Shown: one piece after another, positions 49,969 to 50,510 of the stretch
Layout: each line of letters begins with the position of its first letter
How positions within the stretch are numbered: the first letter of the stretch is position 1
NCBI GenBank assembly: GCA_001793945.1
Contig: MGIW01000006.1
Location: forward strand, 134,179-185,340
Direction: 5' to 3'
From: Candidatus Wolfebacteria bacterium RIFOXYD12_FULL_48_21
Lineage (GTDB): Bacteria; Patescibacteriota; Minisyncoccia; UBA6257; UBA9933
DNA length: 51,162 nt
Position numbers and translations under genes: made by a program
The notes under the pieces: generated by a model
The model's database searches: none
Told to the model about the DNA's origin: nothing
What the model saw: only the letters and a program-made list of their open reading frames with translations

Positions 49969-50275
49969 GCCGCGGTAGCTCAGCGGTAGAGCGTTGCCCT
50001 GAATCTTCGGGGCCTTCTACAGTAATGTAGATTGAATAACCGGGTGAATTCGGGGAAGGCTGTTGTGAAAGCAACGGATAATCCCGAGCCGAGCTCCATT
50101 GGGTTCGTCATATGACGAAGTGGTGGAGAAGGTGTAGAGACTAGCGAGTGAGTCCCAACAATAATCTTGCAATAGCGCCCGGCTCCGTATCTTGCCATTG
50201 GCAGGACGGAGATGAGATAGTCCAAACTAGCCTTGGAAGAGGCAAGCGTCGGGGGTTCAACTCCCTCCCGCGGCA
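49969..50275 (+). tRNA. tRNA-Phe (anticodon GAA) interrupted by a group I intron
   Basis: 5' exon 49969-50000 and 3' exon 50236-50275. Spliced: acceptor GCCGCGG/CCGCGGC with A73, D arm GCTCAGCGGTAGAGC, anticodon stem TTGCC/GGCAA, loop CT-GAA-GA (C32 U33, anticodon GAA, G37 A38), variable GCGTC, T arm GGGGG-TTCAACT-CCCTC. The stem, loop length of seven and T arm only form if the 235-nt intron is removed. A73 is followed by CCG, so CCA is not encoded. The intron begins directly after U33. A promoter is not obvious apart from TATAAT at 49936-49941. Confidence 0.88.
50001..50235 (+). ncRNA. Group I self-splicing intron in the tRNA-Phe anticodon loop
   Basis: 235 nt. P1 forms between the exon end GCCCT (49996-50000) and the guide GGGGC (50009-50013), giving the required U-G wobble at the 5' splice site. 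The last base before the 3' exon is G (50235). The catalytic core is recognisable: AATCCCGAGCCGAGC (about 50080-50094), AAGGTGTAGAGACTAG (about 50129-50144) and GAGATAGTCC (about 50214-50223), which match the P4, P7 and S elements of the tRNA introns of Anabaena and Azoarcus (IC3 type). AGACTA and TAGTCC form P7. There is no open reading frame, so no homing endonuclease. Confidence 0.88.
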
Positions 50276-50294
50276 CCGAAAGGGATTTGAATAA
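50258..50294. repeat. 37-bp direct repeat, copy 1 (tRNA-Phe 3' end)
   Basis: Runs from the T loop through the acceptor end into 19 nt of flanking sequence. The exact copy lies at 50474-50510. Key parts: CTCCCTCCCGCGGCACC and GAAAGGGATTTGAATAA. Confidence 0.9.
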
Positions 50295-50342: not shown

Positions 50343-50493
50343 GGTGCCGTGGAGCGGGCAAACTGCTTTGCCCGCGTGGGGAGTTTAAGACCGCAGCGAT
50401 ATGCGCCCAGCAGGGCGCATCGCGAGGGGCGGCCTGCGAGCTCGCTGAGCGACGGCGAAGCGAGACTTGTAGGCAACTCCCTCCCGCGGCACC
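50343..50493. ncRNA. Branched RNA-like structure ending in a copy of the tRNA-Phe 3' end
   Basis: Closing stem GGTGCCGTGG (50343-50352) with CCGCGGCACC (50484-50493). Hairpin A is GCGGGCAAA-CTGC-TTTGCCCGC (50354-50375). Second stem: GGGGAGTT (50378-50385) with AACTCCCT (50475-50482). Hairpin B is GCGATATGCGCCC-AGCA-GGGCGCATCGC (50396-50423). Hairpin C pairs GCCT (50432-50435) with AGGC (50471-50474) and CTCGCT (50441-50446) with AGCGAG (50459-50464). The 3' strand of the two outer stems is the duplicated tRNA end. No open reading frame. Whether it is transcribed separately or only read through from tRNA-Phe is unknown. Confidence 0.55.
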
Positions 50494-50510
50494 GAAAGGG
50501 ATTTGAATAA
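50474..50510. repeat. 37-bp direct repeat, copy 2
   Basis: Identical to 50258-50294 but not preceded by a tRNA body. Confidence 0.9.

Follow-up and report, generated by a model that had tools for sequence, protein, structure and literature searches.

A group I intron between U33 and G34 of the tRNA-Phe(GAA) gene in a Wolfebacteria genome, and its relatives in Patescibacteria

Introduction

Group I introns of the IC3 subclass are found in the tRNA-Leu(UAA), tRNA-Ile(CAU), tRNA-Arg(CCU) and tRNA-fMet genes of cyanobacteria, plastids and proteobacteria. Self-splicing has been demonstrated for the tRNA introns of Anabaena and Azoarcus. IC3 introns are not known to possess a P7.1 helix; phage-type IA introns carry P7.1 and, usually, P7.2 as well. 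In archaea and eukaryotes, tRNA introns are excised by a protein endonuclease acting on a bulge-helix-bulge.

In the phylum considered here, group I introns are reported from both tRNAs and rRNAs. In the portions of these papers considered here, some CPR tRNAs are described as containing group I introns that are hard to detect, the tRNA and the position not being given (PMC8172020), and CPR rRNA group I introns are described as often carrying LAGLIDADG endonucleases (PMC11270868). Within the sections of a review taken into account, tRNA-Phe is not mentioned as an intron host (PMC3984707). The title of a 2025 preprint (bioRxiv 2025.07.03.662931), as cited in PMC12641178, announces, for Patescibacteria, a new site at which tRNAs are interrupted by introns. 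According to this title, these introns would share phylum, intron class and kind of host gene with the intron described below.

The window, that is the whole stretch of 51,162 nucleotides analysed here, comes from Candidatus Wolfebacteria bacterium RIFOXYD12_FULL_48_21. Its tRNA-Phe(GAA) gene (49969-50275) is interrupted by a 235-nt group I intron (50001-50235) located between U33 and G34. Like the IC3 tRNA introns, this intron is small, lies in the anticodon loop after a U and has a guide sequence pairing with the anticodon arm. It differs from them by its host, by its 33/34 site, by a P7.1 helix between P7 and P3, and by the lack of P9 in the clade to which it belongs. It also resembles the group I intron in the terminase gene of the Aeromonas phage phiA009, with 84% identity over 45 nt of P1-P3, similar P2, P4, P6 and P7 motifs and an insert between P7 and P3. 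However, the phage intron has a protein-coding host gene, a P9-like hairpin and another sequence in the P7-P3 insert. A previous sequence-only reading had considered tRNA-Phe as an unfamiliar host. tRNA-Phe does differ from the IC3 hosts listed above, but the claim has to be tempered in view of the preprint title, as the site announced there may be tRNA-Phe U33|G34 and hence already described. The parts with the best chance of being new are the P9-less variant with its hairpin across the 3′ splice site and the coevolution of exon and guide. As argued below from sequence comparisons, the interruption would be a functional, endonuclease-free group I intron (probability about 0.93), in the sole tRNA-Phe(GAA) gene that was found for this genome.

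Location of the intron and host genome

Run with its intron option, ARAGORN places a tRNA-Phe(gaa), interrupted by an intron of 235 nt, at 49969-50277. The spliced exons form a full, clean cloverleaf, in which the junction reads ...GCCCU|GAAGAGGC. The Rfam group I intron model RF00028 matches positions 49991-50245 over its full length with 61.3 bits (E 6.5e-15, cut-off 50), in a search limited to 1 kb and scored by E-value. Thus, the sequence-only reading, which had placed a group I intron after U33 and had proposed a covariance search for the core, proves correct to the base. The folding z-score of the tRNA-Phe precursor is -4.7. Without its intron option, ARAGORN misses the gene; default tRNA and fast Rfam scans of the whole window return three tRNAs and no intron. 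Standard tRNA callers can therefore score such genomes as devoid of tRNA-Phe.

From the tRNA alone, four cut points are equivalent because GAA begins both the intron and the 3′ exon. Cuts at 34/35, 35/36 or 36/37 give the same joined tRNA, but only U33|G34 is compatible with both a U-G wobble and a terminal G. Homologous introns starting with A or GG instead of GAA (L042, L043, L033 and others) confirm this choice. The features of the locus are collected in Table 1.

Table 1. Coordinates of the exons, the intron and its structural elements within the window
Feature	Positions	Strand	Remarks
tRNA-Phe(GAA) 5′ exon	49969..50000	+	positions 1-33, U33 last; same sequence in the intact G019 gene (5′ half)
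Group I intron, 235 nt	50001..50235	+	last base G (omega-G); RF00028 61.3 bits; empty site in G019
P10 strand of the internal guide sequence, UCUUC	50004..50008	+	pairs with 3′ exon GAAGA 50236-50240; covaries, UCUUY/GAAGA vs UUUUC/GAAAA
P1 strand of the internal guide sequence, GGGGC	50009..50013	+	pairs with 5′ exon GCCCU 49996-50000, U33-G wobble
P2 hairpin, UCUAC/GUAGA	50016..50031	+	97% canonical, many pair types
P3 5′ strand	50040..50045, partner 50177-50182	+	317/318 canonical, U-A/C-G exchanges
P4 (50050-50055/50082-50087) around P5 hairpin (50060-50066/50071-50077)	50050..50087	+	P4 317/318 canonical; predicted fold
P6 (50088-50090/50131-50133), P6a (50094-50097/50125-50128) and one further hairpin	50088..50133	+	P6 99% canonical, compensatory change; P6a 58%
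P7 5′ strand GACUA, guanosine-binding helix	50139..50143, partner UAGUC 50218-50222	+	265/265 canonical, invariant
P7.1 hairpin GCGAG/CUUGC, near-invariant loop UGAGUCCCAACAAUAAU	50144..50170	+	265/265 canonical, compensatory changes; second intron set agrees
P8 hairpin CUCCGU/ACGGAG	50183..50211	+	from the alignment of introns
3′ splice-site hairpin, intron GCCUU 50230-50234 with exon GAGGC 50239-50243, loop G|GAA	50230..50243	+	clade counts, swap test
tRNA-Phe 3′ exon	50236..50275	+	positions 34-73; anticodon GAA first; followed by CC at 50276-50277

The genome, 878.7 kb in 6 contigs, is 97% complete and contains two group I introns, one in tRNA-Phe and one in tRNA-Asn(GUU) after U35. Typing of the Rfam-located tRNA genes gave no tRNA-Phe besides the interrupted gene, and a pattern search for an intact tRNA-Phe found none in the genome. 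A second intact tRNA-Phe gene, designated beforehand as a finding that would, together with an absence of splicing, speak against the intron, was thus sought in two ways without being found in a 97%-complete genome. Within the same genus, G019 has a tRNA-Phe gene with the same exon sequence and no interruption, a natural empty site that defines the insertion precisely. In G018, a sister species of this genus, the intron is kept and is 97% identical over the aligned columns. There was therefore gain or loss within the genus.

A separate observation concerns the 3′ end of the tRNA. The window gene does not fully encode CCA: A73 is followed by CCG (50276-50278; ACCG past the acceptor stem), so that the CCA end must be made post-transcriptionally. 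The genes of G018 and G019 encode CCA.

Core helices and guide sequence

Pairing in the core was counted in an alignment of 53 introns that includes related sequences, the motifs used to gather the introns fixing part of P1 and P7. Canonical pairs account for at least 99.7% of those in P3, P7 and P7.1, and P3 and P7.1 also have compensatory exchanges. Lower pairing scores for P5, P6a and P8 are explained by the peripheral nature of these helices, which vary in length and align poorly. P1 with its U-G wobble, P7 and the terminal G had been recognized beforehand in the window; all three are confirmed, with compensatory exchanges in the helices of dozens of related introns. Likewise, the claim that the intron encodes no endonuclease is upheld, no such open reading frame being found within 50001-50235. 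As a side observation, a similar insert in P6 (CCTTCGCCGGGAGGCTACGGATTGCAAGC...GCCTGCCGTAGCTTTAGC, with variants) occurs in seven tRNA-Phe introns (L062, L034, L058, L061, L070, L075 and L035); it looks like a small repeat or a conserved extension of P6.

The guide sequence changes together with the anticodon arm of its host. The U33-G wobble is present in 53/53 aligned introns and compensatory exchanges occur at three further P1 pairs. In P10, one pair alternates between U-A (27 introns) and C-G (24 introns) along with the exon base, the other clade having UUUUC/GAAAA. When each guide is confronted with its own exon, 209 of the 252 possible P1 pairs and 202 of the 210 possible P10 pairs form, as compared to at most 188 and at most 196, respectively, with shuffled partners (2000 shuffles in each case); because the introns are related, these figures are not probabilities. 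Direct covariants of exon and guide are GGAUU/GAUCC, GGACU/GGUCC and GCCCU/GGGGC. The terminal G is found throughout a set of 42 introns in which two boundaries were corrected; a second set was gathered with that G required. The covariation of P1 and P10 with the host anticodon arm, taken together with the wobble found in every intron counted, is strong evidence that these introns would be working ribozymes.

P7.1 and the 3′ splice site

The five pairs of P7.1 occur as GCGAG/CUYGC, GCAGG/CCUGC, AUAGG/CCUAU, GGAAG/CUUCC or AUAAG/CUUAU, closing a 17-nt loop that is nearly invariant across the introns. As judged by sequence, most tRNA-Phe introns possess P7.1 and are devoid of P7.2. Two tRNA-Phe U33 introns (L087 and L088) apparently have a different, two-hairpin insert between P7 and P3, resembling P7.1/P7.2. 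This arrangement suggests that a second intron lineage may occupy U33|G34.

P9 is absent from the window intron, where 13 nt separate the 3′ strand of P7 from the intron end. In the clade with GAAGA exons, to which the window intron belongs, P7 is followed by 9-14 nt in 24/27 introns, which are hence without P9. The group with GAAAA exons has a longer tail in 23/29 introns, about 32 nt in most of them. A hairpin of 5-9 bp across the 3′ splice site, with the junction in its loop (mostly G|GAA), is possible in 22 of the 27 introns of the GAAGA clade and in 0/29 of the GAAAA group. Intron ends and exon positions 39-43 are matched at 83 of 105 pairs, against at most 82 across 5000 shuffles. Variant exons are accompanied by matching intron ends, as in GCGUG-CACGC, GCAUG-AUGC and GGAUG-UAUCC. 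In the window, the hairpin has only 5 bp and its outer pairs suit the exon of the sister species better than its own exon. Pairing of the intron 3′ end with the guide sequence, as at a circularisation site, was also considered and discarded, as the intron ends in L039 and L068 fit the 3′ exon and not the guide.

A tentative model, against which the odds still lie, may be envisaged from these data. In the GAAGA clade, P9 would have been lost and the last 5-9 nucleotides of the intron, by imitating the anticodon stem on its 5′ side, would hold the 3′ exon in a hairpin with the 3′ splice site in its loop. Exon-exon and exon-intron pairings would compete for one 3′ strand and the anticodon stem would form only after joining of the exons, giving a folding switch that coevolves with the host stem.

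Distribution in Patescibacteria

A 19-nt core motif was searched for in 84,980 species genomes. It occurs on 44 contigs, and all the informatively named ones belong to Patescibacteria (Moran-, Yanofsky-, Magasanik-, Falkow-, Berkel-, Peregrini-, Doudna-, Wolfebacteria and others). On 41 of the 44 contigs, the motif lies in a tRNA-Phe intron at U33|G34; L055 and L069 are tRNA-Asn introns and L057 is cut off. A second survey, independent of the core motif, used only the tRNA 5′ half plus the guide sequence on 381 genomes drawn evenly from the phylum. This combination was found in 21/381 genomes, with 20 real cases, or about 5% of the sample, all 20 being tRNA-Phe introns at U33|G34. An intact tRNA-Phe pattern is found in 241/381 genomes of the phylum and is missing from 19/20 of the intron-bearing ones; in G158, an interrupted and an intact gene are both present. 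As the interrupted and the intact patterns are both strict, their counts are lower bounds.

In total, 56 distinct tRNA-Phe introns at U33|G34 were gathered, with lengths of 200-439 nt. The survey of tRNA-Phe genes in related genomes, which had been proposed as a check, thus shows that the intron is recurrent and that the same genus contains an empty site. No endonuclease gene was seen in any of the 56 introns (0/56); in the eight longest ones, open frames reach 93 codons at most, on the minus strand.

Origin of the intron

In the intron tree, most Moranbacteria are found together and the GAAGA and GAAAA exon types are kept apart with only two changes, most deep branches being weak. The presence of the intron is patchy within families and within the genus of the window. 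With a distribution that is wide over Patescibacteria yet patchy, the intron may be either of the two things envisaged in the sequence-only reading, an ancient one passed down vertically or a derivative. These features fit an intron lineage fixed at U33|G34 and confined, in the present searches, to Patescibacteria, which would go back to ancient inheritance followed by repeated loss, to transfer now and then, or to a mixture of the two.

Another possibility, whose chances we place not far below even, bears on origin only. Instead of having long resided at the site, the intron would be horizontally mobile, perhaps related to phage introns, and would owe its spread to trans-acting endonucleases or to reverse splicing. 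Intact tRNA-Phe genes in the same genus and families agree with such a history, as do the resemblance to the phage terminase intron in P1-P3 and in having an insert between P7 and P3, and the possible HNH open reading frame that tRNA-Asn introns of the same family can hold. On the other hand, no endonuclease gene was seen in the 56 tRNA-Phe introns, a test of the window intron as a homing intron likewise finding no homing endonuclease frame. The core motif has no match in IMG/VR, and the intron tree largely groups Moranbacteria and tracks the exon type. As to phages, three short matches were obtained, in terminase introns; the one described above is among the closest of the phage matches. Whatever the origin, a mobile past is compatible with a functional intron as proposed here.

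Proposed function

In the preferred reading of a functional group I intron, P1, with the U33-G wobble, would form in the precursor RNA by pairing of the guide sequence to the anticodon arm, on its 5′ half. A guanosine bound at P7 would then cut after U33. The terminal G would enter P7 in turn and P10 would hold the 3′ exon GAAGA, that is the anticodon GAA plus positions 37-38. The tRNA halves would be joined and the 235-nt intron would be released. We infer that the intron self-splices, and the cells would probably be unable to make tRNA-Phe unless it excises itself. Since the searches gave no further tRNA-Phe gene, splicing would be essential. Since P9 is missing in the clade of the window, activity may need the help of a protein. 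Possibly, a transient hairpin between intron and exon at the 3′ splice site would take the place of P9 in this clade.

The lack of P9 could also be taken as a mark of decay, in which case the intron would no longer splice, this tRNA-Phe copy would be dead and the cell would rely on another tRNA-Phe. This is very improbable, considering that the tRNA genes of the genome yielded no other tRNA-Phe, that 53 introns have intact core helices which coevolve with their exons, and that the sister species keeps a 97% identical intron over the aligned columns. Removal by a protein, for instance a tRNA-splicing endonuclease recognizing a bulge-helix-bulge as for archaeal and eukaryotic tRNA introns, is the least probable of all, because the full group I core, the U-G wobble, the guide sequence and the terminal G are conserved in the family and the 33/34 site is not the usual protein-processed one (37/38).

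If splicing is confirmed, bacteria with reduced genomes would apparently rely, for all their tRNA-Phe, on a ribozyme located beside the anticodon of a single-copy gene. With its dozens of species, the intron family also constitutes a natural archive in which the joint evolution of a guide sequence and its tRNA host can be read.

Introns and insertions in other tRNA genes

Within this family, a second recurrent intron site is found in tRNA-Asn(GUU), between U35 and U36, with examples in the window's own genome (L001, C4:12516-12780) and in L009, L012, L008 and L010. The own genome also has an intact tRNA-Asn (L126). In L012 and L008, the intron contains a sequence coding an HNH-like CANCH motif; the 108-aa open reading frame of L012 gives a weak match to Pfam HNH (E 0.012). 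The Thr(tgt) label given by ARAGORN to L008 and L010 is likely a misassignment of the interrupted tRNA-Asn, and a 203-nt 'intron' in an Arg(gcg) call in L105, probably spurious, was set aside.

A tRNA-Arg(ACG) of the own genome (L126 70-200, C3:194978-195092) shows an apparent 41-nt insertion in the anticodon arm, too short to be a group I intron. It may be a pseudogene, an odd tRNA or some other kind of insertion.

A folded element downstream of tRNA-Phe

Just 3′ of the tRNA-Phe gene, and unrelated to the intron, lies a strongly folded element of about 155 nt (50343-50497; MFE z -9.1), with no match in Rfam. At its end, 37 nt covering the 3′ tail of tRNA-Phe and the following sequence are repeated exactly (50258-50294 = 50474-50510), with a similar terminator thereafter. 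G018 carries the same downstream element with compensatory changes in the stem. When relatives and the class were searched, the motif was found at 24 places, at least two of which were counted twice from overlapping loci. In 22 of these 24, the motif lies about 70-320 bp downstream of a tRNA gene (Phe, Ser, Tyr, Arg, Val, Pro, Asp, Gly, Lys or Leu), on the same strand, and in 15 of these 22 the sequence that comes next repeats 10-21 nt from the 3′ end of that very tRNA. The element may possibly be a small mobile element or an RNA tied to tRNA tails.
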